Shown here piece by piece: positions 5,147 to 22,447 of a DNA stretch of 34,229 nt (position 1 is the first letter of the stretch; every line of letters begins with the position of its first letter). The stretch spans positions 1 to 34,229 of the forward strand of contig JAFGAO010000272.1 of the NCBI GenBank assembly GCA_016933615.1, written 5' to 3'. Made by a program: the position numbers and the translations under genes. The stretch comes from Acidobacteriota bacterium (GTDB taxonomy: Bacteria > Acidobacteriota > UBA6911). A model generated the notes under the pieces. It did no database searches. It was given only the letters and a program-made list of their open reading frames with translations, and was not told where the DNA came from.

Positions 5147-7762
5147 ATGGCGACGGCAAACCTCCCACCCGGCACGGGTATTGCGGGCCTGGACAGGATC
5201 CTCAAAGGGCTGCTCCCGGGCGACAACATCGTGCTGCAGGTGGATTCCATCAACGACTACACTCCCTTCGTCGCGCCCTTCTGCGGGCAGGCGCTCTTGG
5301 AGGGCAGGAAGGTCATTTATTTCCGCTTCGCCCACCACGAACAGCTTCTGCAAGATATTAGCGGCCTCGAAATAGTCCGTCTCGATCCCCAGGCTGGCTT
5401 CGAGTCCTTCGCCGCGGAAATCCACCGGAAAATAGGGGAGGCGGGCCCCCGGTCCTGCTACGTTTTCGACTGCCTCTCCGACCTGGCCGCGGACTGGTAC
5501 AGCGACCTGATGCTGGGCAACTTCTTCATGGTTACCTGCCCCTACCTTTATGAGCTGGAAACCATCACTTATTTCGCCCTTCTGCGGCACCGCCACTGGT
5601 CCGAAACCGTGGCCTCGATCCGGGACACCACCCAGCTTCTGATCGATGTCCACCGGCACCGCGGGAAACTGTACGTGCACCCGCTGAAGGTCTGGAAAAG
5701 GGATTCGCCGACCATGTACTTCCCGCACGTCCGGGAGGGCGACGAGTTCCGGACGGTCACCGAAAGCGCCGTCATAGCGGATCTTTTCGCTTCCACCTCG
5801 CATCCTGAAGTGGGCTCCGCCGCGCGGGTCATCGACATGTGGAACCGGGTGTTCTTTCAGGCGCAGGACGCCCTGGCGCGGCAGGCGCGCGGGGAGGCGC
5901 TTTTCCTGGAAACCGACGAAATCTTCGAACGCCTCCTGCGCATGATGGTCACGCGCGATGCGCGCCTCCTGAAGCTCGCAAAGAGGTATCTCAAGCTGGC
6001 GGACCTTCTCGCGATCCGCAAGAGAATGCTCGGCACGGGGCTCATCGGGGGCAAGTCCGCGGGGATGATACTGGCCCGGGCCATCCTCTGCGACCGCGAC
6101 GACAAGTGGAAAAGCCTGCTCGAGACGCACGACTCCTTCTACATAGGCTGCGACGTATTCTACACCTACCTGGTGCGCAACAACTGCTGGCGACTGCGCC
6201 AGCGGCAGCGGGATCCGGCCCGATACCTCCAAACCGCGGCGGAAGCGCGGGAGCGGATCCTGACCGGGACCTTTCCCGGCTTTATCCGGAGCCAGTTCGT
6301 CGAAATGCTCGAGTACTTCGGACAGGCGCCCATCGTGGTACGTTCCAGCAGCCTGCTGGAAGATGCGTTCGGCAATGCCTTCGCGGGGAAATATGTGAGC
6401 GTTTTCTGCGTCAACCAGGGGACTCCGGAAGAGCGCCTGGAAGCTTTCGAAAATGCCGTTCGCAGGGTTTTCGCCAGCGCCATGGGGGAGGAAGCGCTCG
6501 ATTACCGTGCCCGGCGAGGGCTGCTCGCGCAGGACGAGCAGATGGCGCTTCTGGTCCAGCGGGTGTCGGGCGCGATGTACGGCGACTTTTTCTTCCCGCA
6601 GGCCGCGGGCGTGGGCCTGTCCTTCAATCCCTACGCGTGGAGCGAAAAGATCGATCCCGAAGCCGGCCTGCTGCGGCTCGTGTTCGGGCTCGGCACGCGC
6701 GCCGTTCTCGCCTTCGAGGGCGACTACACCAGGATTGTGGCGCTCAACGCCCCACTGCACAGGCCGGAGGCGTCCCTGCACGAACAGAGGGAATGCTCCC
6801 AGAAGCGCGTCGACGTGCTGAACCTCAAGACGAACCGGCTGGATTCCCGGTGGTTCGAGGAAGTGGCCGGCGACAATGCGCGCTTCCCCCTGGAAATCTT
6901 CGCATCGCGCGACGAGAAATTGATGCGGCGGGCCAGGGAAGCGGGACAAAAAGATGTCTTTCCGTGGCTGTTGACGTTTGAAAAGCTTCTGACCGGAACC
7001 TCCTTCACCGATGAGATGCGGGATCTGCTCCGGACCCTGAGCGAAGCCTACGAGCACCCGGTGGACGTGGAGTTCACGGTGAACTTTCTCGGGGAGAGCG
7101 CCTGCAGGATCCACCTGGTTCAATGCCGCCCCTTCAAGGTCAAGGGAGGAGGCTGCGCCGCCGAACCGCCCGAAACCATCGACGACGCCGGCCTCGTTCT
7201 TCAAACCCGCGGTCCCGTAATCGGCCCCGTCTGCCGTTGCTTTATAGACCGGCTGATCTACGTCGTGCCCTCCGTGTACGCCCGCATGCCGGAAAGGGAC
7301 CGCCACTCGGTAGCCAAACTGGTCGGACGTCTCGCCCATCTCGACGAGGGGGCATGCAGCCTCATGCTGATCGGCCCGGGTCGGTGGGGGACCACGACGC
7401 CGTCTCTGGGGGTCCCGGTGTCGTTCGCCGACATCAGCCCCGCGGCCGTTTTGTGCGAAATCGCCGAGATGCACGCCGACCTTGTTCCCGAAGTTTCTCT
7501 CGGGACGCATTTCTTCAATGAAATCGTCGAGAACGACACGCTCTACCTTGCCGTCTTCCCGGACAATGAGGGCGTAGCCTTCAACCGCAAGCTCCTCGAA
7601 GGCGCCCCCAACAGCCTGATAAAGATTCTGCCGGACTGCGGGCGCTGGCAGGAGGCGGTCCGGGTCATAGAGCCGGACGCGATCGGGGAGGGATTGAAAA
7701 TTTGCCTCAATGCGAACGCGCAGAAGCAGAGGGCGGTCTGCTACCTGACCGCCGGGGAGTGA
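5147..7762 (+). CDS. large PEP/pyruvate-binding domain protein with P-loop-less RecA/KaiC-like N-terminus
   Basis: An 871-residue cytoplasmic protein. Residues 1 to about 230 look like a KaiC/RecA-type domain (GTGIAGLDRILKGLLPGDN) but the Walker A P-loop is missing: DSINDYTP stands where GxxGxGKT is expected. From about residue 290 (GLIGGKSAGM) to 530 it matches the ATP-binding domain of PEP synthase and pyruvate phosphate dikinase, including VVRSSSLLEDAFGNAFAGKY near residue 400. The phosphohistidine swivel motif and the TIM-barrel PEP domain of true dikinases are absent; the roughly 150-residue C-terminus (IGPGRWGTTTPSLG) is conserved in look but unknown to me. It is therefore unlikely to make PEP; a nucleotide-dependent regulatory or phosphotransfer role is a guess. 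GGAGG precedes ATG 5147. Confidence 0.75.
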   Translation: MATANLPPGTGIAGLDRILKGLLPGDNIVLQVDSINDYTPFVAPFCGQALLEGRKVIYFRFAHHEQLLQDISGLEIVRLDPQAGFESFAAEIHRKIGEAGPRSCYVFDCLSDLAADWYSDLMLGNFFMVTCPYLYELETITYFALLRHRHWSETVASIRDTTQLLIDVHRHRGKLYVHPLKVWKRDSPTMYFPHVREGDEFRTVTESAVIADLFASTSHPEVGSAARVIDMWNRVFFQAQDALARQARGEALFLETDEIFERLLRMMVTRDARLLKLAKRYLKLADLLAIRKRMLGTGLIGGKSAGMILARAILCDRDDKWKSLLETHDSFYIGCDVFYTYLVRNNCWRLRQRQRDPARYLQTAAEARERILTGTFPGFIRSQFVEMLEYFGQAPIVVRSSSLLEDAFGNAFAGKYVSVFCVNQGTPEERLEAFENAVRRVFASAMGEEALDYRARRGLLAQDEQMALLVQRVSGAMYGDFFFPQAAGVGLSFNPYAWSEKIDPEAGLLRLVFGLGTRAVLAFEGDYTRIVALNAPLHRPEASLHEQRECSQKRVDVLNLKTNRLDSRWFEEVAGDNARFPLEIFASRDEKLMRRAREAGQKDVFPWLLTFEKLLTGTSFTDEMRDLLRTLSEAYEHPVDVEFTVNFLGESACRIHLVQCRPFKVKGGGCAAEPPETIDDAGLVLQTRGPVIGPVCRCFIDRLIYVVPSVYARMPERDRHSVAKLVGRLAHLDEGACSLMLIGPGRWGTTTPSLGVPVSFADISPAAVLCEIAEMHADLVPEVSLGTHFFNEIVENDTLYLAVFPDNEGVAFNRKLLEGAPNSLIKILPDCGRWQEAVRVIEPDAIGEGLKICLNANAQKQRAVCYLTAGE

Positions 7763-7891
7763 ACGTTTTCAGAGCCCTGTGGATTAATGTATTATGGCAC
7801 CCGGGCTCCCGCCGGCTCGCGGTCCGATGAAAATCGTTTTGTGCTTTTATTGATTCCATTAACTTCACCCGTGAAAGGATCGGAGAGCGAA

Positions 7892-8800
7892 ATGATGAAA
7901 CGGATTGCATTTTGCATTGCTGCGGCATGTCTGTGTGCAATTCTTGTCGCCCTGGCGCCGGGATGCGCGACCCGGGATACGGCCGAGAAGCCGGCGCCGG
8001 ATGCCGCCACGCAGGCGCCGCGGGAGGGTTTTGTCCCGTCCCCCGTGTTTTCCCCGCCCTATCCGCCGCTGCCGCACCATTTCAGCGACATTCACACCCT
8101 CCAGATTTTGTGCCGGGCCCCGGAAGGGGCAATCAAACGGGCGCTCGCACCGCCGCTGGAACCGGTCGCCGGCAAAGATATGTTTGTACTGCTGATGGCC
8201 TGGACTCCTGACGTGGAGAAAATGGGTTTCAACGTCCACGAGATCGCGATCAACGCCCCGGTTCAGTGGAACGGCCGGGAAGGGAACACGACCCTGATCG
8301 AATATATCGACAGCGACATGGGCCTGATCGCCGGGCGGGAGGTTTACGGGTGGCCCAAGAAGATGGCCGATATCGAATGGACCGAGACCGGAACGGGCTG
8401 GACCGTCACGGCCAACAAGATGCGGGACCAGGGCGGCATTCCGCTCTTGAAAGTCGAATACAAAGTATCCGACTCCACGCCCGAGGTCGAATGGCCGGAC
8501 ATGGGCCCCACCCTGCTGGTCCGGCGCATCCCCCCGGCTTCGCTTACGACCCCGTCGTTCAACCAGATCGTGTGCGTCGGCTGCAACATGGAGAGGCCGG
8601 AAAGCGGCGCCCCCCTGGTGGCCCGGCCGGGAGCGAGGGACACGAAAGGTTCCGCCGAGGTCCGGTTCTTCGACGGACCCCACGACCCTCTGACCTTCCT
8701 GGGCCCGGCGGAAGTGCTCGACGCGAAAATGAGCATCATGGAGGGCGACATGCCCGGCGGCCTGGGTCTGGGCGAAGTCCTGCACCAGTGGGAGGAGTAG
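7892..8800 (+). CDS. exported acetoacetate decarboxylase (ADC) family protein, probable lipoprotein
   Basis: A 302-residue protein. The N-terminus is a basic, then hydrophobic signal (residues 4-23) ending in LAPGC, an imperfect lipobox, so surface anchoring is likely. The body matches the acetoacetate decarboxylase fold: the sequence GREVYGWPKKMADIEW aligns with the YPKK active-site motif, placing the Schiff-base lysine at Lys156 with Lys157 beside it. Classical ADC is cytoplasmic; an exported relative implies a different substrate or a binding role. The start is one of two adjacent ATGs (7892 or 7895) behind GGAG; the frame is open upstream but lacks a signal peptide there. It converges on the selenoprotein 1 gene, 109 nt away. 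Confidence 0.75.
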   Translation: MMKRIAFCIAAACLCAILVALAPGCATRDTAEKPAPDAATQAPREGFVPSPVFSPPYPPLPHHFSDIHTLQILCRAPEGAIKRALAPPLEPVAGKDMFVLLMAWTPDVEKMGFNVHEIAINAPVQWNGREGNTTLIEYIDSDMGLIAGREVYGWPKKMADIEWTETGTGWTVTANKMRDQGGIPLLKVEYKVSDSTPEVEWPDMGPTLLVRRIPPASLTTPSFNQIVCVGCNMERPESGAPLVARPGARDTKGSAEVRFFDGPHDPLTFLGPAEVLDAKMSIMEGDMPGGLGLGEVLHQWEE

Positions 8801-8909: not shown

Positions 8910-10703
8910 TCAATGGCTTCTGCCGATGATGCATAGTTCGTCCTCACACTCCCTGTATACGGGCATGCGGAGCGGCTTTTCATCAAGCCTGACCCCTTCT
9001 TCGGGGATCCACTCGTCTACGGAGGCGGTTTTGTAATAGGTATAATCGGTCGACTGCCAGATGGGATTGGTTTCGCCGCCCACAACCACGAAGTTGATGC
9101 CGTCCGGATTCGGTTTGAAGAAACCGGATCCCGACTGTCCCGCCAGCCACTGGCTCAGCCTGCCCGGATCATTCCAGCCTTCGTCCTTCAGGGACTTCGC
9201 CGCCAGCGGGTCCACTACGAAAGTGCAGTTTCCCATCATCCCGGAGGATCTCATTTTCTGCAGCAATGCGTCCGCCCCGCCCATTCCGAGGGTCGAGACG
9301 TTCCAGCCGCGGAAAATACTGACGGCGCTTTCGGAGGCTTTGAACCCTTTGCGCACGTGGAACGGTTCCCAGGGGCTCTTTTTTTCGTTTTCGGCGCAGC
9401 ACTGGTTTGTAAAACTCAGACCGTTGCCGATAGTGGCCATGTAGGTGTCGCCCGCGCGCGCGTTGCCGAAGTTGATGCTCATAAGGGTCCAGGCCCGGCC
9501 GATGACGGAATTGGCGTAGTTGAACGGGCCCATCGCGCCGACGCCGCCGTTCATGCCGATGGTTTCGGCAATCGGACCGCTGACCACCACCATGCTCCCG
9601 TAGGATCCCGTCGAACTGGGAATGGAGGGGTGCCGGGTCGAAGCGATCGCCAGGATGACCGGCAGATGTTCCGGCCTGGCGCCGGCCATGACGGCGTTGG
9701 CGGCCACCTTTTCCACGGTGTACTCGCGCATTTCCTCATGCGTTGTGACCGACATCATGCCGACCACTTCCCCGGGATCGCGGCCGGTCCCCGTAAGCAT
9801 TTCGGCGACTCTTTCCTCCGTCGGCAATACGATGGGCAACCCGTCGGTCCAGCCGTTTTCCAGGAACAGCCGGTGAAGATTCGCCTCCGAGTCCGGCTCC
9901 AGCAGGCGCGGCCTTCTGGGCCTTTCGGGTATTTCGGGATTCGCCTCCGCTTCGGTCAAGGGCTTCGTGAGCGCGTCGATGATTTCCGTCATCAGCGGCC
10001 GGCCGGTTACGGGATCGCTGCCCCGTATGTATTTACGGAGAGTTTCCCTGGGAACCCAGCCGACAGGGTAGGGGGGGAAGGTCCAGCGCAGGTTCATCCC
10101 GTGGGAGGCCCCGTCGCGCAGGACGTATTCCGCGAACCGCGCAGTGGCGACGGGTGCCGTGGGAACGCCGTAGTCGCCTTCCATGATGCGGGAGAATTCG
10201 GCGACACTCGCCGAACAGCCGTCTCACCCGCCGACGCCGAAGACCACGCCGTCCGCTTTTTCCTTAAGCTCGGGCCAGAGTTCGGGGCTGTCCTCGAAGG
10301 CACTGTGGCTCTTTATGTGGATCACCGTTTTGACGGAAGGCATATTTTCACCGAACCACTTCTGCATTTCCTCGAAGAACTCTTTGCTGCCGGCGAAACC
10401 GACATCCACGAGGTAAATCGTCCTGTTGTCCAGGCTGTCCAGCCTGGGAGCCATCCGGAGCGGGACCAGTTCATCCCGGGACAGCGTGGGCTGCGTTTCG
10501 GGATTGCGGTTGGCCAGAATGCCCGCGCCGGCTGCGGCCACCCGGCCGAAGATTCCGCAAGGCTGCCCCCTGGGATCCAGAACCGTCAGTTCCGGCCCCG
10601 GGGATCCGGACGTGCGCCCGCAACCCGCACAGGATGCCAGGATGACCGCGCCGGCGATCAGCCGGGCCGAATGGATTTTGGAAAGAAAATGGAATGCGCG
10701 CAT
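8910..10703 (-). CDS. UGSC-family selenoprotein 1, exported lipoprotein (in-frame TGA read as Sec160)
   Basis: Read through one TGA, this is a single 597-residue protein; read conventionally it breaks into a 159-residue and a 424-residue frame that are exactly in phase. The site reads GVGG-U-DGCSAS, giving a Sec-x-x-Cys redox pair at the place where the family has UGSC. The N-terminus is a signal ending in a perfect lipobox (L22-A23-S24-C25), so the protein should be anchored outside the cytoplasmic membrane. After the Sec domain comes a roughly 330-residue domain with WTDGLPIVLPTEERV and VSGPIAETIGMNGG, shared with selenoprotein 2. Biochemical function is unknown; a redox role is inferred. 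It is last in the six-gene operon, 64 nt after the XDH large subunit, with GAGAGG before ATG 10703. A simple nonsense mutation is unlikely given the SECIS-like hairpin. Confidence 0.88.
10197..10215 (-). promoter_or_regulatory. candidate bacterial SECIS element of selenoprotein 1
   Basis: Eight nucleotides after the TGA, the mRNA has a perfect 8-bp stem (UUCGGCGA/UCGCCGAA) closed by a 3-nt loop GUG. The apical loop begins 16 nt after the UGA and its first base is G. This fits the general bacterial SECIS pattern: a short stem-loop inside the coding region just 3' of the UGA with a G in the first two loop bases, recognised by SelB. Confidence 0.75.
10224..10226 (-). other. in-frame TGA, proposed selenocysteine codon
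   Basis: TGA between GGG (Gly) and GAC (Asp) in the selenoprotein 1 frame. TGA also serves as a normal stop in this window (for example at the end of the genes at 7762 and 19671), so a changed genetic code does not explain it. Confidence 0.85.
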
Positions 10704-10767
10704 ATTTTTCCCTCTCTGGTTTACGCTCTCCGGTGATTTTCATCCCAGGTCGGATACTTGAAGAGGA

Positions 10768-13122
10768 TTATATCTTCCCCAGCGCCTTCAGGACCTTGTC
10801 CGGGGTGACGGGAAAGTCGGTGATCCATTTGCCGGTCGCGTTGTAAACCGCGCCGGCCAGGATGGTGGCGGTCACGGCTCCCAGGCTTTCCCCGACCCCG
10901 ATGGCTCCATAGGGCGCGTACCCCAGGCCGCTTTCCACGATGCGCTGGTGCATGGGCCCGGTGATATCGTTGAACGAGAACCATTTGTAGTCAACAAGAT
11001 TGTCGTTGAGAACGACGCCGGTGTCCGGGTCGTAAACTTTGCAGTCCTGGCGGCCGTGGCTCAAGCCCATGTACGAGCCGCCGTACTGCTGGGCGTTGAC
11101 CCCTTCGGGGTCAAAGCATTTGCCTACATCGTTGGAGTTGACGACGGTCTTGATCTCGATCTCGCCGGTATCCGGGTCGACTTCCACCTCCACCCAGGTG
11201 GCCTGCCTGCCCATATGGTAGATCTCCTCGTGGTGCATTTCGGCGCCGCTCGAGGCGATGAACGGCTGGTAGTGCTGCCAGTTGTAGCCTGCCACCTCCT
11301 GGAGCGTTTTCCGGTTGCCCGGCCTGGCTTTCTCGAATACGACGCTGTCCTTGATATCCAGGTCTTCGGGCCTGCAGCCGGGGAACTGGGCCGGGACGTC
11401 CACCACATCGGGTTCGGTGCCGGTCCGGGTCGGGGTCGTGCACTGAGCCAGGATGAGAGCCCTGATTTTTCGCGCCGCGTCCACCGCCATCGGCAGGGTT
11501 CGCACCAGGCCGGCCGATCCTTCTCCGGCAGCCGTGTCCAGGCCGGTGTCGTCGAAGGGCCTGAATTCGACGTCTTCGTACCGGACCCCTATTTCATCGG
11601 CGACCACGCGGCAGATGGTGCTCTCGTGGTTCCAGCCGCCGTCGGCGTGCCGGGCCAGGATCCTCACCAGGGGAGTCTGCCGCTGGATATTGATTCCCAT
11701 CTGAAACGCCTGGAAGTAACGGTTCGGGTCGGGCGACCAGGCAATGCTGTGCGCCATCGCCGCTCCGTGCAGCTTGCCGTTAGGCAGCATCCTGGCCCCG
11801 GGGGCGTGGTATTTCCCGTCCCAGCCGAAAGCTTCCTTTCCCGCTTGAAGCACCGCATCCAGAGAATCCGCCATGGGAAATCCCCTGGGCTTCTTGACAT
11901 TTTCATCCACCCAGGATATCGGGCGGCCGCGGCAGCCGTCGTTTCTGACGGCCACGACGTGCGGGTCCAGCCCGGTCTCGGCCGCGACGCGGAAAAATAC
12001 GTTGTTCCACAGGCCGCATGCCCTCATGCCGTGCCGGTAGCAGATCGACGCCGGGCGGTTGATGTACGGGATTTCAGTGTAGCCGTAAAGATTGGGGATC
12101 GATGTTCCTTCCCAAAGCTTGCCGTGCACCTCCGCGGACGCCCGCACGGACCTGTCTTCGACGGCCAGGATGGTGCCGTCATTCCTGAACCCGACCTTGA
12201 TGTTGTGCACTCCGTGCTCGTATCCGCCCGCGTGGAAATAGCTTTCGTCGTACAGGAGTTTGACCGGCTTTTTGGTCCTCTGGGCAAAGATGCATGCCAT
12301 GATCGGGAACCAGCTGTTGTAGACGATCCAGTTCTCATAGCCGAACTGCGCGCCCTGGTAGAGAGAATGCACATGAATGTGGAGGTGATTGCCGAAGTAC
12401 CTTGCGAGGACGACCTGCGTGCGCATGGGAATCTGGTTATGCGCCCAGACCTCGAGGTATTCCCCCCGCAACACGGCCACACAGCTCAGGGCTTCCACGC
12501 CCGCGACGGTAGTTTCGTCTTCGCTCCATCGGAATTCGACAACACGGTCGGATTCCGCGAATCCTTTTTCCACGTCGCCGTGCACTTCATAGCCCTCGAA
12601 TAACCGGCTCCCGCTGTACCGTATGTTTGTCTCCGGATAAAGTTCAGGCTGCAAAATGACGGCGTCGGGGGCGACGGCTTTCTCCGGGTCGAGCTCGAAA
12701 GGCAGGATCTCCCAGTCAATTTCGGCAAGCTTCATGGCTTCGTCGCAGATCCGCGGGCTGTCGGCACAGACGGCGAACCCCGTGGGCTCTCCCGCCCAGT
12801 TCGCTTCCTGAGCCAGCAGCTGTTCGGTCTGATGGCTGAAAATCCACATGGTGAAGTTTTCCCACCGGACATCCGTAAACCATTTGTCATCGTACCGGAA
12901 GACCGCTTTGACCCCGGGGCAGGCTTCGACCGCCCGGGTATCCAGATTCCTGATCCTGGCATGAGGATAGGGGGACAAATACATCTTGGCGTAGAGCATG
13001 CCCGGCAGGTACACGTCCCTCGTGTACAGGCCCGTTCCGCTGGCTTTTTCATAACCGTCTTTGCGGCGCAGCCCTCTTTTCCCGATGGCATTGAAGGAAT
13101 TGCGTGTAGTATAGGCCGGCAC
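10768..13122 (-). CDS. xanthine dehydrogenase/aldehyde oxidase family molybdenum subunit
   Basis: A 784-residue molybdenum-cofactor subunit of the molybdenum hydroxylase family. It shows the N-terminal hammerhead region (KASGTGLYTRDVYLPGMLYAK), pterin-contact segments, and the C-terminal IGVGES motif whose Glu745 corresponds to the catalytic glutamate. The usual GGGFGGK segment is altered to YQGAQFGYENW, so substrate or cofactor contacts may differ. There is no signal peptide; export would depend on the Tat signal of the partner subunit. No FAD subunit is present, unlike three-part XDH or CO dehydrogenase. The start is GTG 13122, directly after the TAA of the 2Fe-2S gene, with GGAGGAAAG spanning the junction, so translation is probably coupled. 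The substrate is unknown. Confidence 0.88.
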   Translation of the reverse strand: MPAYTTRNSFNAIGKRGLRRKDGYEKASGTGLYTRDVYLPGMLYAKMYLSPYPHARIRNLDTRAVEACPGVKAVFRYDDKWFTDVRWENFTMWIFSHQTEQLLAQEANWAGEPTGFAVCADSPRICDEAMKLAEIDWEILPFELDPEKAVAPDAVILQPELYPETNIRYSGSRLFEGYEVHGDVEKGFAESDRVVEFRWSEDETTVAGVEALSCVAVLRGEYLEVWAHNQIPMRTQVVLARYFGNHLHIHVHSLYQGAQFGYENWIVYNSWFPIMACIFAQRTKKPVKLLYDESYFHAGGYEHGVHNIKVGFRNDGTILAVEDRSVRASAEVHGKLWEGTSIPNLYGYTEIPYINRPASICYRHGMRACGLWNNVFFRVAAETGLDPHVVAVRNDGCRGRPISWVDENVKKPRGFPMADSLDAVLQAGKEAFGWDGKYHAPGARMLPNGKLHGAAMAHSIAWSPDPNRYFQAFQMGINIQRQTPLVRILARHADGGWNHESTICRVVADEIGVRYEDVEFRPFDDTGLDTAAGEGSAGLVRTLPMAVDAARKIRALILAQCTTPTRTGTEPDVVDVPAQFPGCRPEDLDIKDSVVFEKARPGNRKTLQEVAGYNWQHYQPFIASSGAEMHHEEIYHMGRQATWVEVEVDPDTGEIEIKTVVNSNDVGKCFDPEGVNAQQYGGSYMGLSHGRQDCKVYDPDTGVVLNDNLVDYKWFSFNDITGPMHQRIVESGLGYAPYGAIGVGESLGAVTATILAGAVYNATGKWITDFPVTPDKVLKALGKI

Positions 13123-13797
13123 TTACTTTCCTCCATTGAGAGCGCGGGCTGCCTGCCGTACGGCCGGGATATGCCGTATGTAAGTTGCGCACCGGCACAG
13201 GTTGCCGCCCAGGGCTTCCCGGATGTCGGCTTCCGTCGGATCAGGATTCCGGTCCAGCAGGGCTTTGGAAGTACAGATAAAACCTGGGGTGCAGTAGCCG
13301 CACTGCATGCAGTAATTCATGATATAGGCTTCGATCAGCGGGTGCCCGGAAAGGGCAATGCCCTCGGCTGTTTCTATTTTGCTGCCGTTGCACTCGACGG
13401 CGAGAGTCAGGCAGGAGAGAATCGGCCTGCCGTCCAGTATCACGGTGCACGACCCGCAGGCGCCGTGGCCCAGGCACATGTCCTTGATGGACAGGCAGCC
13501 CAGTTTTTCGCGCAGGCAGTCGCGCAGCGACTCTTCAGGCTCCACTCCAACCTCGTAGTCTTCGCCGTTTACGTTGAGTTTTATTTTTGGGGGCGCCCCT
13601 GCGGCGGCCGCCGCGACCCTGGCGGCCGGCAGGTCCGAAGCGGCGCCGGCGTCAACGGGAGATACTCCGGTGATGGGGCCTGCCATGGATGCGCCGGCAA
13701 TCAAACCGGCGTCCCTCAGAAATTCCCGGCGGGACAGGACGCCGGAAGATTCTTTGGGCCTCGGTTTTTCGGGGCGCCTGTCTTCTTCTTTCGGCAT
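13123..13797 (-). CDS. Tat-exported 2Fe-2S subunit of the molybdenum hydroxylase
   Basis: A 224-residue electron-transfer subunit. It has a twin-arginine signal (SRREFLRDAG, near residues 22-31) followed by a hydrophobic stretch, then the plant-type 2Fe-2S site (CLGHGACGSC plus a later Cys) and the second, all-helical 2Fe-2S site (CMQCGYC and CRC). Family members without a Tat signal are cytoplasmic; here the signal predicts periplasmic assembly, carrying the large subunit along. AAAGGAAAG precedes ATG 13797. The gene lies 51 nt after the 4Fe-4S gene and abuts the large-subunit gene. Confidence 0.9.
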   Translation of the reverse strand: MPKEEDRRPEKPRPKESSGVLSRREFLRDAGLIAGASMAGPITGVSPVDAGAASDLPAARVAAAAAGAPPKIKLNVNGEDYEVGVEPEESLRDCLREKLGCLSIKDMCLGHGACGSCTVILDGRPILSCLTLAVECNGSKIETAEGIALSGHPLIEAYIMNYCMQCGYCTPGFICTSKALLDRNPDPTEADIREALGGNLCRCATYIRHIPAVRQAARALNGGK

Positions 13798-13848
13798 GCT
13801 GCTTTCCTTTCAAGGCTGCAAATGCGGGCCCGCGATGGAAACCGGACC

Positions 13849-14394
13849 CTACCCCGCGATCCAGACGGACGGATCGGACGCGGCAACCAGCCTGCGGGCT
13901 GCCTTCTTGGCCGCCAACTCGGATAACTCCTCCATGGTCCCGGCGCGCAGCGCCTTCGGCGGGCAGCTCTCCACGCATGCCGGCTGCTGTCCTTTTTCGA
14001 CCCTGTCCAGGCAGTAGTTGCATTTCTGCATGGTCCCGTCCTCGCCGTACTGCGGCACTCCGAACGGGCAGGCGGAGGCGCAGGCGTGGCAGCCGATGCA
14101 GCGGTCCCTGTCCACGATCACGATGCCGTCCCCGGCGCGCTTGCGGATCGCGTTCGCCGGGCACACCTGGATGCAGGCCGGCTTCCCGCAGTGCATGCAG
14201 GAGAGCGAGACGCTGACGATTCGGGCGTCGGGCCAGGCTCCGGACTCGACCGTAGTGACCCGGCGCCAGCGGGGGCCCTGCGTGCCGGGTTCCGCCGTCG
14301 CCGCCGGCGGGATATGGTTCCAGTTCTTGCAGGCGGCCGTGCAGGTATAGCATCCCATGCAAACGGTCAAATCGATGTAGAAGCCTCTTTGCAT
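13849..14394 (-). CDS. DmsB/PsrB-type 4Fe-4S ferredoxin subunit
   Basis: A 181-residue protein with four cysteine clusters typical of DMSO-reductase electron-transfer subunits: CMGCYTCTAAC, CMHCGKPAC, CIGCHACASAC and CNYC with following cysteines, predicting up to four 4Fe-4S clusters. It has no signal peptide, so co-export with the Tat-bearing catalytic subunit is inferred. No DmsC/NrfD membrane anchor gene lies in the operon, so how electrons leave is open. The ribosome site overlaps the stop of the preceding gene (TAGGAGGACGGGATG), indicating tight coupling. Confidence 0.9.
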   Translation of the reverse strand: MQRGFYIDLTVCMGCYTCTAACKNWNHIPPAATAEPGTQGPRWRRVTTVESGAWPDARIVSVSLSCMHCGKPACIQVCPANAIRKRAGDGIVIVDRDRCIGCHACASACPFGVPQYGEDGTMQKCNYCLDRVEKGQQPACVESCPPKALRAGTMEELSELAAKKAARRLVAASDPSVWIAG

Positions 14395-14403
14395 CCCGTC
14401 CTC

Positions 14404-16572
14404 CTATGCCTTCCTCACCTGGCAGAGCTGGGACTTGAAAGCCGGGAAACCCGATATCGGATCCAGGGTTCTTGCCGTAATTGTATTGACGTCGGCCTGG
14501 GGCCAGCCGTGATATACGTGAACCACTCCCGGCTGGGCTAAATGGGTGATGTTTGCCTTGACCGTGATGCCGCCTGCCGAAGTCTCGACGACGGCATCCT
14601 CTCCCTGTTGGATCCCGCGCGCCCGGGCGTCTATAGGATGGATGTCCACTTTGGGATCGGGCTGGAGCTCCCGCAGGCGCGGGTTGTTCCGGTGGCGCGA
14701 GTGCGTGTACATCGGTTCCCGCGACCCGGTGTTGAATATCAGGGGATATTTCCCGGCCATTTGAGGCGCCGCCACCGGTCCCTCCGGCGGTTCCCGGTAC
14801 ACGGGCAACCCGTCAAAGCCGGCCTTTTCCAGAACGGCGGATTTCAGCTCGAACTTGCCGGAAGGCGTTTTGAACCCGGGCTTGCCGGACTGCGGCTTGC
14901 CCGGAGGAATCACCATGCCCTTGGGCTCTTTCATCAGGTCGGCCGCTTGAATGCCCAGCGGTTCGAGCTGCCAGTCCAGGGTGGCTAGGATATCCCCGTT
15001 CCAGAAATCCGCTCCCATGCCCATATGTTTCGCCAGGTCCCACATCCACTCCATATCGCCCCGCGCCTCGCCGATGGGCCGTACCACGGGCTGAGGAAGG
15101 AATACGGTTCTTTCGGCGATGGCGATGGGGCCCAGCCTCTCGAGCGAGGTCGCTGCCGGCAGCGCGATATCCATCAATTCCATGGTGGGGGTCAGCCAGA
15201 AATCCGCTCCGGCGGCAAACTCCATGTCGCGGATCGCCTTGGAGTACAGATGGTCCTGGGGCCACATGCGGTAATTGCAGCCCACGAACAGGCCTGCCCG
15301 GAGAGTGCCTTCCCCGACATATTCGGGCAGCCGGTTGACCTGAATCTCCTGCACGAACTGCTCCCAAACGGGGAAGTCCTTGAGATCGGCGCGCTTGTCC
15401 CGCAGCGGCGGAAGCAGCGTTTTCCAATCGGTGATGTCGCGAAATGACAGCGGCGGAATGGACGGCTCCATTCCGGGCACCGCGACGGTGCCGGTCAGCG
15501 CGGTCATGGCCGAAATGGCGCGGTGGTTCTGGCAGCCGTTCCAGTGGTGTACGGTCGATGCGGCGCTCGTTATCCATCCGGTGGGCAAATTCGAAGCATA
15601 CATCCGGGCGGCGGCGACCAGTTTGCCCGCCGCAACGCCCGTGATGGTCTCCACCTTCTCGGGAGTAAATTGCTGTACGTAATCCCGGAAATCCTCGAAT
15701 CCGCGGGTCCAGTCGCGCACGAAATCCTCATCGTACAGCCCTTCATTGATAATGACGCGGGCCATGCCCAGTGCCAGCGCGCCGTCGGTGCCGGGGCGCA
15801 GCTGCAGGTGGATGTCGGCCAATTTCGTGGTGGGCGCAAGCCGGGGGTCCACATCGATGATTTTGACGCCCCGCTCTTTGGCCTGGACGAGTCTTTCCAT
15901 CTCGCAGGCCATGGCCCATGCCGGGTTTTGCGCCCAGAGGATCACGGCCCTGGTATCCGGCGTCAAACCGGCGCTGCCCGCCCCGTTGAGGCTGGTTGCC
16001 AGAACCGTAGCCCGGTGGCAAACGGAGCTTTCCGTCCCGTAATTGGGGGAGCCGAATTTCAGCGCCAGGCGCTGCAGATTGGGGCGCACCGCATCCTTGG
16101 GGTCGCCGGCATAGAACAGGACTTTCTCGGCGCCGTACTTGCGGCGGATCCCGTCAAGCCTTTCGGCAATCGTATCCAGGGCCTCGTCCCAGGAGATGCG
16201 CTGCCAGGCGGCGCGGGCGCTTCCCTTGGGATTGGTGCGCTTCATGGGATACTGGAGCCGGTCCGGATGGTACAACTGCAAAAGTATGGATTGCCCTTTG
16301 ACGCAAATCGGGCCCCGGGGATAGTCCCTGAACGGCTGCACGCGCGTGGCCCGGCCCTCTTTGACCAGGACTTCGATGCCGCAGCGCCCGATGCAGCACA
16401 TGTCGCAGATGCTGCGCCGGATTTCCTCCCCGGCGGCGATTTCGGTTTCCGCGGCGCGGACCGTGGACGCTCCGGGCAAAAGACCCGCCCCGGCCGCGCC
16501 CAGCACGCCGGAAGCCTTCAGAAAGGTTCTCCGGTCCAGTCTGCGGCCCGGGATGAATGGCTTGTGCCGCAT
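14404..16572 (-). CDS. Tat-exported DMSO-reductase-family molybdopterin oxidoreductase catalytic subunit
   Basis: A 722-residue molybdo- or tungsto-enzyme. A twin-arginine signal (DRRTFLKASG, near 13-22) is followed by the 4Fe-4S site (Cys56, 59/60, 64 and 90). SSVCH places Cys185 as the probable metal ligand, as in the polysulfide/thiosulfate reductase and acetylene hydratase side of the family. The C-terminal cofactor domain (FNTGSREPMYTHS) is present. Pairing with the DmsB-like subunit is typical. Substrate cannot be told: sulfur compounds, arsenicals, or a hydroxylation/transhydroxylation of an aromatic are all possible. AAGGAGG lies 9 nt before ATG 16572. It is the second gene of the operon, 101 nt after selenoprotein 2. 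Confidence 0.88.
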   Translation of the reverse strand: MRHKPFIPGRRLDRRTFLKASGVLGAAGAGLLPGASTVRAAETEIAAGEEIRRSICDMCCIGRCGIEVLVKEGRATRVQPFRDYPRGPICVKGQSILLQLYHPDRLQYPMKRTNPKGSARAAWQRISWDEALDTIAERLDGIRRKYGAEKVLFYAGDPKDAVRPNLQRLALKFGSPNYGTESSVCHRATVLATSLNGAGSAGLTPDTRAVILWAQNPAWAMACEMERLVQAKERGVKIIDVDPRLAPTTKLADIHLQLRPGTDGALALGMARVIINEGLYDEDFVRDWTRGFEDFRDYVQQFTPEKVETITGVAAGKLVAAARMYASNLPTGWITSAASTVHHWNGCQNHRAISAMTALTGTVAVPGMEPSIPPLSFRDITDWKTLLPPLRDKRADLKDFPVWEQFVQEIQVNRLPEYVGEGTLRAGLFVGCNYRMWPQDHLYSKAIRDMEFAAGADFWLTPTMELMDIALPAATSLERLGPIAIAERTVFLPQPVVRPIGEARGDMEWMWDLAKHMGMGADFWNGDILATLDWQLEPLGIQAADLMKEPKGMVIPPGKPQSGKPGFKTPSGKFELKSAVLEKAGFDGLPVYREPPEGPVAAPQMAGKYPLIFNTGSREPMYTHSRHRNNPRLRELQPDPKVDIHPIDARARGIQQGEDAVVETSAGGITVKANITHLAQPGVVHVYHGWPQADVNTITARTLDPISGFPAFKSQLCQVRKA

Positions 16573-16673
16573 GGTGTATTGCCTCCTTGCGTTGCCTGTT
16601 GCGCCGGCGGGCGCACGGAAGAGGAAAAGGGCCGAGGCCCCCCCTCTCCCTTATCGCGCATCTCAAAGGGGCG

Positions 16674-18488
16674 TCAACGCCATCGGTCCACGCCGACGGC
16701 TGTGCCCCGGCCGCCGTTGAAATGCCAGATGGATTCGTCCGCGCCGCCGCCGCCCACTACGATCAGGTTTTCTTTAGGGTCTCTCGAGCCGAAAATCGGG
16801 ATCTTGTAGTCGTCGCCGAATTTCTCGTACAGTTCATTGAAGGTGTAGCCCCACTGGTTGGTTCCCTCGGTCCTGTCCCCGATGGCTGTCGCAAATTCCC
16901 ACCAGCCGTGCCGCTGATAATCGCGGATCGTCGCCTTGAAGTTGTTGAACAGCCATTCGTAGACCGCCTTCTTGGTCGGGAAAATCTCCCCGATGGGTTT
17001 GGCCAGATTCGGCACTATGAAGAAGGTATGCCCGCTGTTCATTTTCAGGGGGGCGATCCGGGGAGCCAGCCATTCGAGGACGTTATGCGGCCCGGGTTTT
17101 CCCAGCACTCCCAGGTCATCCGCGATGCTTCCGATCCCGTCCTGGAGCCTGCGGGATGCCCCGGGGGCAAACTCGTTGACGCCGAAACCCCGATGCGAGG
17201 TTTTTACGAGAACACTGTCCCGCCTGCTGTAGCCGAACTCCTCGCCGACGGTTTCCCAGCCCGGCGGCAGATTGGGCGTATCCTCGGCGGCGACGGCGAA
17301 TAACGGGTTGCCGGCATCGGTGCGTTTGATGCCCGCGATGCAGCCGCCGAAATTGATGGTCATGAGCCGCGCCGCTTTGGCCAGGGACACGTTGGCGCGG
17401 TTCCCGTAATCCAGGAATTCGTGCCTGGCGCCGACGCCGATCTCCCCGGCGATGGGGCCGTCGACGATATAGACGGTGCCGATGGAGCTGCTGGTGCCGG
17501 GGCAATTGGTGCTGCCGCCGCCCTGTTCGGCCATCGCCAGCAGGACGGGCATGTACTCCGGTTTGCATCCGGCCATGGCGCCGATTACGGCCACCTTCTC
17601 GACGGTAACGGTTTCGTAGCGGGAGAATTTGACGGGTTCCCCCCGGGCATCCGTTACGACCGTATCGGGGCTGAGGCTGGTGCCGGTGAGCATTTTGGCG
17701 ACTCTAGCCTCGGTCGGGGGGATTATGGGGGAGCCGTCGGTGTAGATGCTGATCTCGGCGTCGGCGGACTCCACGCGCTCCGTCGCGTTGAAGAATTCCA
17801 CGGCCTCATCGTAGGTGCCTTCGAAAATATACCTTTCAGGTTTTTCCGGCATATAGGTGCCCGCGTACTTCTCCCGGTCGGTCAGGGGATCGGTCAGGGA
17901 TTTGATAAGCGCGGGGACTATGGGATACAGCCGCTTGTCGGGCGTGCCGGTGCGTTCGATCGTCACCCAGCGCAGCTGGGGCACATTGTTGAGCAGAGCC
18001 GTTCTCTCGAAATATTTCTTCTGGTCCCAAAAGCCGAATCTCACCGTCGGGATCCCGGCTTTTTCCACGTTCGTATTGTATTCAGCCTGAATACTGGTGG
18101 CGGCCCCTCACCAGGACTGCCCTCCGATTACGGCATCCGCTTTGGCCAGCAGCTCGCCGTCCTCGGCGGGGTTGGTGGGGCCGAAACCGTTGTGCTGTAT
18201 CCGGACCCAGTGCGTGTCCGGATAGGTATCCTTTAAGTATTGTTCCAGGAAGGGCCCGGTCTGCGGACCGGCCTCGCATACGGCAATATAGATGGTCTTG
18301 CCCTTGATGGTATCCAGGCGCGGCGCCAGTCCCCGCACCTCTACGGGACCGGGAATGCCTTGCGGATTCAGGAACCGGTGCACCGGCTCCTCGGCTTCGT
18401 CCGCAGCTTGCGCAGGCGTGCCTGCAAAGGCGAGCGTCACCCCAAGTGGCAACAACGCCGCTAGAACGATTTCGAAAAGCCTCTTCAT
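16674..18488 (-). CDS. UGSC-family selenoprotein 2, exported (in-frame TGA read as Sec127)
   Basis: Read through one TGA, this is a 604-residue protein; the two conventional pieces are exactly in phase and lack any ribosome site between them. The site reads GGQSW-U-GAATS: Sec-Gly as in UGSC, but the Cys position is Ala. A Sec-type signal peptide covers residues 1-28 and ends in AQA. The N-terminal domain (to about 250) and the C-terminal domain (YTDGSPIIPPTEARV, VDGPIAGEIGVG, LMTINFGGC) are paralogous to selenoprotein 1. Function is unknown. It is the first gene of the operon, with AAAGGAG before ATG 18488 and a possible promoter at 18550-18579. A second domain cysteine (for example in the STNCPG motif) could be the resolving thiol; this is a guess. 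Confidence 0.87.
18078..18094 (-). promoter_or_regulatory. candidate bacterial SECIS element of selenoprotein 2
   Basis: Thirteen nucleotides after the TGA, the mRNA has a perfect 7-bp stem (GUAUUCA/UGAAUAC) closed by a 3-nt loop GGC. The loop starts 20 nt after the UGA and its first two bases are G. The stem sequence is unrelated to that in selenoprotein 1 while geometry and loop start are alike, which argues for selection on structure. Confidence 0.75.
18108..18110 (-). other. in-frame TGA, proposed selenocysteine codon
   Basis: TGA between TGG (Trp) and GGG (Gly) in the selenoprotein 2 frame, at the position homologous to the TGA of selenoprotein 1. Confidence 0.85.
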
Positions 18489-18975: not shown

Positions 18976-19671
18976 ATGAAACCTTATGGTTCCGCGCTGT
19001 GGATAATTTTATTGGCAGGGCAGAGCGGGCTTTGGGGGCAGGAAAAAGTCGCGTCCATAGCCTATGACGATTCCGTGAAGGATTTCGGCAAAGTGATGCA
19101 GGGGGAGATGCTCGAGCACGTGTTCGGCTTCAGCAACCGGGGTTCGGGCACTCTGGAAATATTGGGTGTCGAAGCTACGTGCGGTTGCCAGACGAACACT
19201 CTTTCAGATACGCAGATATTGCCGGGGCAAAGCGGCCGCATAGAAATCAATGTGGATACGGCCCTGCTCTCCGGGTCCATAGAAGAGACGGCCCGCGTCA
19301 CTACCAATGATCCGAGGCGGCGCAAGGTTTTTTTCACCATAAAAGCCGATGTGCAGCCGGAGATCCGCGTATCCAGCCCGTCGGTCTATTTCGGGGACGT
19401 GCCCGAGGGAGAGCTGGCCGCCCGGGAAGTGACGCTCACCGTCGCGGCCGGAAAATCCATCGAGATCCTGAGCGCCCGGTCCAGCGAGGATGGCGTGGCC
19501 GTGAAACTGGAGCCGGTGCCGGAAAGCGGAGGAAAAACGGTAAGGCTGATCGCAACACACAAAGGCGACGGGAAGTTCGGCTACCGCACCGGAAGTATCA
19601 CCGTAAAGACAACCAGCACCCTCACCCCGGAGCTGTCGATTTACCTGTTTATAAGGAATTTAAACCGCTGA
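18976..19671 (+). CDS. DUF1573 domain-containing exported protein
   Basis: A 231-residue protein with a signal peptide (residues 1-21, ending near LWG) followed by an immunoglobulin-like DUF1573 domain: YDFGKV-type start (KDFGKVMQGEMLEHVF), FSNRGSGTLEI and the hallmark cysteine pair in ATCGCQTN. A second beta-sandwich repeat covers residues 125-230. Such proteins are periplasmic or surface proteins of unknown role, abundant in Bacteroidota and Acidobacteriota. GGGGGCGAT precedes the ATG. It is divergent from the selenium-molybdenum operon and converges on the MFS gene. Confidence 0.85.
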   Translation: MKPYGSALWIILLAGQSGLWGQEKVASIAYDDSVKDFGKVMQGEMLEHVFGFSNRGSGTLEILGVEATCGCQTNTLSDTQILPGQSGRIEINVDTALLSGSIEETARVTTNDPRRRKVFFTIKADVQPEIRVSSPSVYFGDVPEGELAAREVTLTVAAGKSIEILSARSSEDGVAVKLEPVPESGGKTVRLIATHKGDGKFGYRTGSITVKTTSTLTPELSIYLFIRNLNR

Positions 19672-19733: not shown

Positions 19734-21095
19734 TTACTGAGATTTTTTTAGCATCCCGTTCAATTTTGGGCCCTCGGATTGAAGCTTCAGGAATATCAGG
19801 ACCACCGAGCCCGCCAGCGACCCGATGGCCATTATCATAGCGACCGCGGGCAGCGCCAATCCCACCCCGAACAACAAACCCGCCAGGATGGGTGATAGCG
19901 TGGCCCCGCCCCGGCCCACCCCGATCATGAAACCGGTGCCGAAAGCCCGCGCATGGGTCGGAAATGCCTGGGCCGCGACGGCGATCAGGCTTATGACGCC
20001 GGCATTCAGGAAGAAGCCGGCGACGGCGCAGAAAGCGGTTATCAGCGCAAGATCCGCCGAGGTGCGGCCGAAGACGGCAACAAACACGGCGGAGAGAACC
20101 AGCGAAGCGATGGAAAGCTTTTTAATGCCGAACCTGAAAGTGAAAAGGCCGAAGGCTGCCCCGCCCAGCGCCCCGCCGGCATTGGCCCAGCCCAGGACAC
20201 CGCTGGCCGAAGAGGCCGTGAATCCCATATCGACCAGAATTTTGGGCACCCATTTCATGATGAAATAAAAAGTCACGAGATTGAGAAAGTAAGCGGAGGA
20301 AACGATCAGGGTAGTCGCCACCAGGCCGGGGCTGAAAATATCGCCGACGGATTTCCTGCGCGAATCGGGCGAAACCTCGGGCAGCGCATCCAGGGCGGCG
20401 TGCCCCAGCCTTGCGAAAGTTTTATTGATCTTCCCGAGGGCGCCCGGCGGCTGCTTGCGCGTCAACCAGTGAACGGATTCCGGAATAAAAATGACGATTG
20501 CGGGAATGAAGAGCGCCGTTACCGCGGCGCCGAAATAAAAAATCGAGCGCCAGTCGTATCCGGCCAGCAATCCGGAAGCTGCGGCTCCCCCCAAGGCTCC
20601 ACCAACGGGATACCCGATGGCCATCAGGGAAATGCACAGATGCCGCCGCCGGATATTGGAAAATTCCGCGACCAGGGCATTGATCGCCGGAAGCATGCCC
20701 CCGATTCCCAGCCCTGTGACGATGCGCCAGAAGGAAAGGGAAAAAACACTTCCGGCGGTTGTAACCATGAACATGCCCAGGGTCATGACCAGCAGGCAGA
20801 ACAGGACAGCCGTCAGGCGTCCCGATTTGTCCGCCATCCCCCCCAGCAGGAAGGACCCGAGGCTCATTCCGACAAGTTCCATGGAGGCAACGATGCCCAG
20901 GGCGGCCGGGTCCACGCCCCACTCGCCGGCTATGCCCGGCAGGGCAAAGCCGATCGCCAGAACGTCGAAGCCGTCCAGGGCATTCAGGCCGACAGTGATG
21001 GCTACGATTATGATCTGGAGCCGCGTCATTGCGGAATGATCCATGACTTCACGCGGGTCGGCACTCAATCCGGAGTTCGTCTTCATACGTTTCAT
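19734..21095 (-). CDS. MFS transporter, aromatic acid:H+ symporter (AAHS) type
   Basis: A 453-residue membrane protein with about 12 hydrophobic segments. The first reads GLNALDGFDVLAIGFALPGI, the TM1 signature of AAHS transporters such as PcaK and BenK, where the Asp pair is needed for aromatic acid uptake. The loop between TM2 and TM3 has the MFS motif GGMADKSGRL, and PESVHWL follows TM6. It probably imports an aromatic or other carboxylic acid with protons. The start is uncertain: ATG 21095 (AGGAC just upstream) or ATG 21086. It lies 44 nt after the CoA-transferase gene and ends the MaoC/CoA-transferase/MFS operon. Confidence 0.85.
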   Translation of the reverse strand: MKRMKTNSGLSADPREVMDHSAMTRLQIIIVAITVGLNALDGFDVLAIGFALPGIAGEWGVDPAALGIVASMELVGMSLGSFLLGGMADKSGRLTAVLFCLLVMTLGMFMVTTAGSVFSLSFWRIVTGLGIGGMLPAINALVAEFSNIRRRHLCISLMAIGYPVGGALGGAAASGLLAGYDWRSIFYFGAAVTALFIPAIVIFIPESVHWLTRKQPPGALGKINKTFARLGHAALDALPEVSPDSRRKSVGDIFSPGLVATTLIVSSAYFLNLVTFYFIMKWVPKILVDMGFTASSASGVLGWANAGGALGGAAFGLFTFRFGIKKLSIASLVLSAVFVAVFGRTSADLALITAFCAVAGFFLNAGVISLIAVAAQAFPTHARAFGTGFMIGVGRGGATLSPILAGLLFGVGLALPAVAMIMAIGSLAGSVVLIFLKLQSEGPKLNGMLKKSQ

Positions 21096-21139: not shown

Positions 21140-22351
21140 CTAAATGATGGCTCCTTCGTCCTTGAGGCGGGTTATGTCCTCCCAGGAATACCCGGCTTCC
21201 AGAAGGATTTCTTCCGTGTGCTGGCCGACCTGGGGCGCCGGCCCCTGCACTTCGGCGCCGGTCTCGCTGAATTTCACCGGACTGGCCACCAGCCGGATCT
21301 CGCCGGCATTGGGGTGGTCGAGTCTGGCGAAGAAGCCGTTCTGTTCCGCCTGGGGATCGCCGGTTATCTCCATGACGGTCTGTGCCATGGAGTTGACCAT
21401 GCCGTGCCGGTCGAGAATATCCATCCACTCGCGCAGGGTCCTCGCGGCGAAGATTTCGCCGATGATCGACACCAGGGCTTCGTTATTCCTCTCCCGTTTG
21501 GCATCGGTGTCGAACCTCGTGTCCTGCTGCAGCTCCGGGCGCCCGACGGCTTTGCAGAAGCCGGGCCAGTAGCGCTCCGACTGCATCATGGCCAGCTGGA
21601 TCCAGCGCCCGTCGCCGGTCCGGTAGCTGTTCCAGAGCGGGTTTTTCGCCTTCAGCCGCTCAATGTTGGGAATCTCTTCCTTCCGGTACAGGGCAACCTG
21701 AAGATCCTGGTTCATGACCCACGCGGCAGTCTGATAGAGGGAGAAGGCCACCTTCTGTCCTCTCCCGCCTCTTTCCCGGGACAGAAGCGCCGCCAGGATG
21801 CCCGAGGTAATGCACATCGAGGTAATGTTGTCGCCGATGCCCGGGCGGTGGCTGGGGGGAGTTCCCGACGGGGCGCACAGTTTGGACATGAGGCCGCCCC
21901 GAGCCCAGAATGCGGCGTAATCGTAGCCCGGCTTCTCTCTGTCGGCCCCGGACTCGCCGTAGCCGGTCAGGGAGGCATATACCAGCTTCGAATTGCGCCT
22001 GCCGAGCGTTTCGTAGTCCATTCCCAGTTTGTCCAGCACCCGGGGCTGGAAATTGGATACGAAAACATCGCTCCGCTCCACCAGGCGATAGACGATCTCC
22101 CTCCCCTGCTTCAGCCGCAGGTCGACGCCCAATCCCCGTTTGCCCCGGTTCAGCACCTCGAAGACAGGCATGAGGTGATTGCTCATGGGGATCCCCTCTA
22201 TGGACCGCATCCCGCGCAAGCCGTCTCCCATGCCCGGGTTTTCAATCTTTATGACTTCGGCGCCCCAATCCGCCAGGATGGCGCAGGCGCTGGGAACGGC
22301 CACCCAGTGCCCCAATTCCACGACCTTGATGCCGTCGAGAGCCCCTGCCAT
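21140..22351 (-). CDS. CaiB/BaiF-type (family III) CoA-transferase
   Basis: A 403-residue enzyme that moves CoA between carboxylic acids. It begins with the family opening (LDGIKVVELGHWVAVP, ADWGAEVIKIENP) and has FEVLNRGKRGLGVDL and the GYGESG segment. The expected catalytic aspartate is in PGYDYAAFWARGG (Asp144 from this start). The start ATG 22351 is chosen because GGGAGGCGG lies just upstream; an in-frame ATG at 22420 adds 23 residues that look non-conserved and lacks such a site. With the neighbouring transporter and hydratase it probably activates an imported acid; the substrate is unknown. Confidence 0.88.
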   Translation of the reverse strand: MAGALDGIKVVELGHWVAVPSACAILADWGAEVIKIENPGMGDGLRGMRSIEGIPMSNHLMPVFEVLNRGKRGLGVDLRLKQGREIVYRLVERSDVFVSNFQPRVLDKLGMDYETLGRRNSKLVYASLTGYGESGADREKPGYDYAAFWARGGLMSKLCAPSGTPPSHRPGIGDNITSMCITSGILAALLSRERGGRGQKVAFSLYQTAAWVMNQDLQVALYRKEEIPNIERLKAKNPLWNSYRTGDGRWIQLAMMQSERYWPGFCKAVGRPELQQDTRFDTDAKRERNNEALVSIIGEIFAARTLREWMDILDRHGMVNSMAQTVMEITGDPQAEQNGFFARLDHPNAGEIRLVASPVKFSETGAEVQGPAPQVGQHTEEILLEAGYSWEDITRLKDEGAII

Positions 22352-22447
22352 CTTTCCGCCTCCCGCGTCTGTCCTTGAACGTCCAAGGGAACTGTCTTTC
22401 CATTTTCCGTGTTCCGACATTTCCGGATCCGGATCCCCGGCAGCCCG

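Follow-up and report, generated by a model that had tools for sequence, protein, structure and literature searches.

A Rossmann-like domain related to GrdB in two probable UGSC selenoproteins that flank molybdenum enzymes in an Acidobacteriota gene cluster

What chemistry is carried out by a selenoprotein family whose genes bracket two molybdenum enzymes? The question is raised by UGSC-1 and UGSC-2, two members of the UGSC family encoded in the window, i.e. the whole stretch of 34,229 nucleotides analysed here (contig JAFGAO010000272.1, positions 1 to 34,229, assembly GCA_016933615.1) from an Acidobacteriota bacterium of the UBA6911 lineage. UGSC selenoproteins and a UGSC/Unknown_1 fusion are reported from the Global Ocean Sampling data (PMC2398784); the accessible part of that source classes the domain as thioredoxin-like and gives no function, and no functional study of UGSC was found in the literature searched, a scope outside which most subscription papers and preprints lay. 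We describe the UGSC domain as Rossmann-like in fold and as a relative of the selenocysteine (Sec) domain of GrdB/PrdB, a relation that is new here. Open reading frame translations give six genes on the minus strand, from 18488 to 8910, with intergenic gaps of 101, 9, 51, 0, and 64 nt, in the following order, each Sec site and candidate SECIS (Sec insertion sequence) being listed with its gene:

16674-18488, minus strand: UGSC-1, predicted exported two-domain selenoprotein, 604 aa, translated with TGA as Sec
18063-18110, minus strand: Sec TGA and candidate SECIS hairpin of UGSC-1, 7-bp stem from 13 nt past the TGA
14404-16572, minus strand: MopB (DMSO-reductase superfamily) catalytic subunit with Tat-like (twin-arginine translocation) signal; PF00384, PF01568, PF04879
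13849-14394, minus strand: 4Fe-4S electron-transfer subunit, DmsB-like; TIGR02951 163.6 bits (cut-off 214.1), Fer4_11
13123-13797, minus strand: 2Fe-2S small subunit of the XDH family with Tat signal; PF01799
10768-13122, minus strand: XDH-family molybdenum large subunit; PF20256, PF02738, PF01315
8910-10703, minus strand: UGSC-2, lipoprotein-like two-domain predicted selenoprotein, 597 aa, translated with TGA as Sec
10179-10226, minus strand: Sec TGA and SECIS-like hairpin of UGSC-2, -19.1 kcal/mol, z -1.95

Both outer genes carry an in-frame TGA at homologous sites, as an initial annotation of this DNA had stated, and both frames remain open past it. The codon is read here as Sec127 of UGSC-1 (TGA 18110-18108, context WUGAATS, no Cys at +3) and Sec160 of UGSC-2 (TGA 10226-10224, context GGUDGC). 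The Sec/Cys column is invariant in a 41-row UGSC alignment, in which one row, L133, is a thioredoxin-type misfit. Across the genus, an in-frame TGA is present in 132 of 152 UGSC rows and absent from 20, the table comprising 150 listed of the 165 genus matches and two from a scan of the window's own genome; at least 60 codons are open past the TGA at all 93 sites tested. Because the frames are open, the Sec/Cys column is invariant, and the TGA is found in these 132 rows, the TGAs are not chance stops. The absence of sel genes, which the initial annotation had named as a result that would speak against it, is not what was found: this genome has selA, selB, tRNA-Sec (two matches above the gathering score, 73.3 and 53.5 bits), and two selD genes (L288 and L289, contigs C97 and C203), each with an in-frame TGA. 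UGSC-1 and UGSC-2 are very probably selenoproteins. RNA following the TGA at 90 distinct genus sites folds with a mean of -14.5 kcal/mol, compared to controls of -9.2 (60 nt on), -11.5 (120 nt on), and -12.6 kcal/mol (shuffles), statistics that pool related sequences. Taken singly, the UGSC-2 hairpin is suggestive and the UGSC-1 stretch is weak (-8.9 kcal/mol in all, z 0.14). In the window's own genome, 16 of 17 copies matching PF24696 carry an in-frame TGA. One copy (C44) has a TAA in addition and may be decayed, another (C14) has two TGAs, and a third (C181) has no stop and adjoins AOR, 4Fe-4S, and URO-D-family genes.

UGSC-2 scores 59.2 bits against PF24696, above the gathering score of 25, and UGSC-1 scores 24.9. 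The NF041046 equivalog cut-off of 125 is reached by neither protein (38.7 and 28.2 bits). The literal UGSC motif is missing from both, which have UDGC and UGAA instead; it is present in standalone UGSC genes of five loci (L102, L119, L140, L105, and L214). By these scores, both are best described as apparently distant UGSC family members and not as the NF041046 equivalog.

The nature of the UGSC domain was addressed by profile comparison with GrdB/PrdB-type (PF07355) proteins, taken from the genomes behind the named loci plus one from the congener G009 and read through the TGA. In a single comparison with 19 GrdB-type rows, hhalign gave 96.8% (E 2.7e-10); this set includes a short row, L258, that was probably read past its true stop, and seven full-length GrdB rows alone, without L258, gave 96.5% (E 7.3e-10). 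The alignment places Sec on Sec, with the subsequent 'GIPtV' segment in register, and the match is still 96.8% when the window's own rows are left out. Controls stayed low: at most 1.2% for 22 unrelated family profiles, at most 0.3% for 30 column shuffles, and 1.1% for a reversed profile. A thioredoxin-like fold was rejected at 2.0% against 26 thioredoxin-like parts (from 49, 17 were removed as UGSC-like and 26 kept by motif), and the published 'likely Trx-like' label is therefore not supported. An AlphaFold model of UGSC-2 (pLDDT 82.2, pTM 0.84) has an alternating strand-helix domain and a second large domain; Sec160 lies between strand 152-156 and helix 161-177. The strand-helix pattern is Rossmann-like, with weak flavodoxin-like matches, and a Foldseek search of the model against the PDB returned no match below E 0.001. 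Searches with PF07355 found no match in the window's own genome and one partial match in G009.

The C-terminal domain (C-domain) has no Pfam match in two standalone examples. GrdE and GrdC were considered as candidates for it and rejected (profile comparison at most 0.4%; 0.1% against GrdE). A fold search yielded nothing stronger than weak matches to class I fumarase and cyclic amide hydrolase, the best with a TM score of ~0.3, and was not used. In 26 loci the C-domain is fused, as judged by motif, to a thioredoxin-like CxTC part, one of which has a sub-threshold Thioredoxin_2 match. Three loci (L102, L119, and L140), hosted by two Nitrospinae/Nitrospinota metagenome-assembled genomes and one other bacterium, have one common gene order of four tandem C-domain genes, XDH, and a standalone UGSC gene; they further carry enoyl-CoA hydratase-like genes and an acyl-CoA dehydrogenase-like gene, both named by eye. 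A pyridine nucleotide-disulphide oxidoreductase of thioredoxin-reductase size adjoins UGSC in L073 and G008:C100 and is in the same locus in L105, and selB adjoins UGSC in L077 and is in the same locus in L105. At L214 (G008:C100), CoA-transferases, UGSC fusions, a C-domain gene, a standalone UGSC, the pyridine nucleotide-disulphide oxidoreductase, and XDH occur together, perhaps as a form of this system that works in the cytoplasm. Between L079 and L144, several loci, most of them from rumen and gut Bacteroidales, encode two-domain UGSC proteins in which Cys replaces Sec and the N-terminus is longer and contains extra Cys.

The genes and gap sizes of the cluster had been described in the initial annotation and were reproduced; Pfam and NCBIfam agree with its broad gene labels, domain matches bear out its two molybdenum enzymes, each with an iron-sulfur partner, and the export signals that it placed on four of the six proteins (two Tat, one Sec-type, one lipobox) are present. 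These signals were identified by eye except where a hidden Markov model (HMM) is named. UGSC-1 has a Sec-type signal and UGSC-2 a lipobox-like LASC; the twin-arginine motif of MopB scores 21.8 bits with PF10518, below the cut-off of 22.7, and the 2Fe-2S protein scores 18 bits with TIGR01409, above the cut-off of 16.7. Export of these four proteins is likely from their predicted signals, and the other two could leave the cytoplasm with their Tat partners. Promoter and terminator consensus scans of the cluster did no better than on shuffles; we presume that the six genes are transcribed jointly.

MopB lies below the cut-off of each of 25 NCBIfam models listed. Its best solved relative is acetylene hydratase (2e7z, E 6e-77). 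An acetylene hydratase function was rejected: the alignment to 2e7z has Cys where Asp13 is expected, which we take to be the catalytic residue of that enzyme, both residue role and numbering offset being our assumption. The expected metal site of MopB is Cys-His, as in the aligned formate dehydrogenase. The XDH large subunit has the MoCoBD domains and a GVGE segment, the Glu of which is presumably the XDH-family active-site Glu; its best solved relative is the alpha subunit of 4-hydroxybenzoyl-CoA reductase (1rm6, E 6e-38).

UGSC proteins are a many-copy family in this genus. The ten genus genomes, this one included, have 17, 12, 10, 19, 27, 28, 14, 16, 11, and 11 matches to PF24696, i.e. 165 in total, with 17 in this genome and 10-28 per genome. 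With P0001 as query, matches were found in 10 of 10 genus genomes and in 4 of 90 other relatives, at most 13 candidates being scored per genome. According to the accessible part of a 2026 review (PMC13188914), the largest whole bacterial selenoproteomes comprise 57 and 63 genes; a single family at 10-28 copies per genome is notable.

Some of these copies lie near molybdenum or tungsten (Mo/W) enzymes. XDH is found within 5 kb of UGSC in 13 of 152 genus rows (expected at most 4.4, P 7e-4) and AOR in 16 of 152 (expected 6.2, P 7e-4), 2.6-2.9 times expectation, where expected counts assume whole-genome density and full flanks and orthologues of different species are treated as separate; no row is in both lists. 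As a control, XDH lies near AOR in 6 of 93 cases (expected 4.3, P 0.26). A looser label set places XDH near 15 and AOR near 14 of 114 UGSC genes. Within the window's own genome, 7 of 17 UGSC rows have XDH or AOR within 5 kb and 10 have neither. Gene groups of 4Fe-4S, AOR, and UGSC, and of XDH and UGSC, recur across the genus genomes, and several 4Fe-4S proteins of the recurrent AOR/UGSC groups carry a Tat motif by eye. The AOR family as a whole has 145 matches in the ten genomes (8-25 per genome, 14 in the window's own), and some of its genes adjoin 4Fe-4S genes with a Tat motif. Recurrence is found for UGSC near XDH or AOR; of 114 UGSC genes examined, none outside the window has a MopB within 5 kb.

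The six-gene order was not found elsewhere among the genus genomes and the 80 named loci screened; the contig scan kept 80 of 577 relatives, and genes on the loci were called by our own hexamer caller, which can miss small genes. Among nine congeners, close orthologues were found only in G008, on two contigs (C207 and C25), with 89% identity for UGSC-1, 96% for the end piece of XDH, and 84% for UGSC-2. Contig C207 ends inside UGSC-1, with MaoC, CaiB, MFS, and DUF1573 genes ordered as here, and C25 starts with the last 148 residues of XDH; the contig ends fall at the expected position of MopB, and the absence of the central genes may reflect incomplete assembly. No close orthologue of UGSC-1 was found in congeners beyond G008, and UGSC-1 groups with Chloroflexi/Dehalococcoidia homologues in the tree (support 1.0). 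UGSC-2 falls among genus members, and an XDH gene also adjoins a near relative, L204 in G001 (node support 0.61). XDH matches were found in 5 of the 80 named UGSC or C-domain loci (tblastn E 1e-15). In G008, the UGSC-2 orthologue is followed on one strand by a cupin-like gene, a glycyl-radical activase, and a glycyl-radical enzyme (L198:6812-12386, G008:C25). Hence the proposal in the initial annotation that the six genes act as one pathway is not supported as a conserved unit, the order being found only here among the genomes and loci screened and MopB without a close homologue in the nine congeners; what recurs is the looser UGSC-Mo/W association.

The genes around the cluster bear on what it may do:

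18976-19671, plus strand: DUF1573 protein between two minus-strand gene groups; PF07610 E 2e-21; same place in G008
19734-21029, minus strand: MFS transporter; TIGR00895 300.7 bits, below the cut-off of 418.6; longest open reading frame to 21428
21140-22420, minus strand: CoA-transferase family III; PF02515 E 7e-109; kept in G008
22448-23137, minus strand: MaoC-like hydratase; PF01575 E 2e-22; kept in G008
7787-8800, plus strand: ADC-family protein with lipobox-like signal; PF06314 E 1e-25; convergent with UGSC-2

The MFS transporter is nearest to the aromatic acid/H+ symport family and is kept upstream of UGSC-1 in G008. The ADC-family gene, which the initial annotation treated as a companion of the cluster, is on the plus strand and convergent and is therefore not part of the operon. 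Beyond it, positions 5147-7762 encode a large protein with a pyruvate phosphate dikinase AMP/ATP-binding domain, and a look-alike by eye is found beyond UGSC-2 in G008 (L198:12414-14000).

We tentatively favour a reading, possible though short of probable, in which UGSC-1 and UGSC-2 are exported, GrdB-like, selenolate-dependent enzymes that work with the two molybdenum enzymes outside the cytoplasm in catabolism. The selenium, at a helix start behind a beta strand, would most likely serve, as a selenolate, to attack or reduce a small organic substrate that the conserved C-terminal domain helps to hold; the nucleophilic chemistry is suggested by analogy with GrdB. Outside the cytoplasm, the same compound or successive intermediates would be the target of the UGSC proteins together with the two Tat-carried molybdenum enzymes; the MFS transporter would then import the product, the family III CoA-transferase would activate it, and the MaoC enzyme would hydrate it. 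Uptake of a product and its activation with CoA are consistent with the MFS, CoA-transferase, and MaoC genes nearby; the substrate may be an aromatic or other organic acid, and both export of the complexes and the order of steps are our suggestion. A wider and rather doubtful version is that the genus has turned a GrdB-like Sec domain into many exported, substrate-specific enzymes, each teaming with XDH, AOR, or MopB, which would cleave or reduce bonds of organic compounds outside the cytoplasm with the Mo/W partner set by the substrate. The window would then be the most elaborate case seen, with two UGSC proteins and two molybdenum enzymes.

Several results weigh against the favoured reading. 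UGSC-1 and UGSC-2 are only 30% identical and fall in separate clades, so they need not share a step. UGSC-2 is not beside XDH in G008, where 6.2 kb with opposite-strand genes lie between them; MopB has no close homologue in the nine congeners (best G008 match 40%) and no match in the 80 named UGSC or C-domain loci at the same tblastn threshold; and 123 of 152 genus UGSC rows have neither XDH nor AOR within 5 kb. The operon lacks an electron sink and a flavin (FAD) subunit. As for the GrdB relation, GrdE is matched by the UGSC domain as well, at 74.4%, so the link may extend to a wider fold group, and the PF07355 HMM matches neither UGSC protein (E 0.1). The C-domain has no sequence relation to GrdE or GrdC, and its model (pLDDT 89.5) has only a weak fold match, to class I fumarase alpha (E 5.5e-5).

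Some of these observations would suit other explanations. UGSC proteins may be general selenol redox or repair partners that reduce, protect, or mature Mo/W enzymes and do not act on a substrate. We consider this unlikely: recurrence near two unrelated families, XDH and AOR, and once MopB, the oxidoreductase genes of thioredoxin-reductase size, and the 26 loci with C-domain-CxTC fusions all agree with it, but the 123 rows distant from XDH and AOR do not, 10-28 paralogues per genome seem too many for a housekeeping partner, and neither UGSC-1 nor any of 10 related rows (L065-L071) has the +3 Cys of a UxxC redox pair. It is likewise rather improbable that the six genes came together by chance or in this species alone, with two many-copy paralogues surrounding two molybdenum enzymes and no joint action. 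Such a gathering would account for a gene order not found elsewhere in the set screened, the distance of UGSC-2 from XDH in G008, and the single close genus orthologue and distant grouping of UGSC-1; the tight same-strand gaps, the XDH gene beside the UGSC-2 relative L204, and the enrichment of XDH and AOR near UGSC argue against it.

Two further explanations have far less to recommend them. Selenium-dependent molybdenum hydroxylases are XDH-family enzymes, and with XDH near UGSC it is conceivable that UGSC hands labile selenium to the XDH-type enzyme to make such a hydroxylase; we think this highly unlikely given the TIGR03311 score on P0006 (93.3 bits, cut-off 830.5), the export signals on both UGSC proteins, and the presence of AOR and MopB near UGSC as well. 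That the TGAs are true stops and the genes broken or split is barely credible: UGSC-1 alone lacks a significant hairpin and copy C44 carries its extra TAA, but the TGA is present in 132 of 152 genus rows, the frames are open at every tested site, and the genome has a complete Sec machinery. If the favoured reading of exported, selenolate-dependent enzymes is true, an exported branch is added to Sec-dependent chemistry and Acidobacteriota carbon breakdown gains a new use of selenium. The GrdB homology, the 10-28 copies per genome, and the repeated Mo/W neighbours make UGSC function directly testable.

The cluster resembles several known systems in part. The nearest solved relatives of the MopB subunit are acetylene hydratase and formate dehydrogenases; it differs from the former in lacking Asp13 and shares Cys-His with the aligned formate dehydrogenase. 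With 4-hydroxybenzoyl-CoA reductase and the XDH family the cluster has the large and 2Fe-2S subunits in common, but the match is only 133.5 bits, there is no FAD subunit in the operon, and the small subunit has a Tat signal. The UGSC proteins share the N-terminal domain, the Sec site, and in outline the two-domain fusion with the proteins of PMC2398784, NF041046, and PF24696, as far as the accessible text goes, and Unknown_1 of that source is likened to the C-domain by outline only. Unlike the proteins described there, the window type is predicted to be exported, occurs in 10-28 copies per genome, lies near Mo/W enzymes, and is linked to GrdB. GrdB and PrdB of the glycine, sarcosine, betaine, and proline reductases (PF07355) have a homologous Sec domain with Sec in the same place, whereas the UGSC proteins have no direct PF07355 match, carry a C-domain unlike GrdE or GrdC, and are predicted to be exported. 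Grd/Prd selenoprotein operons likewise have two selenoprotein genes per operon; the accessible part of PMC13188914 mentions neither molybdenum enzymes nor export for them.

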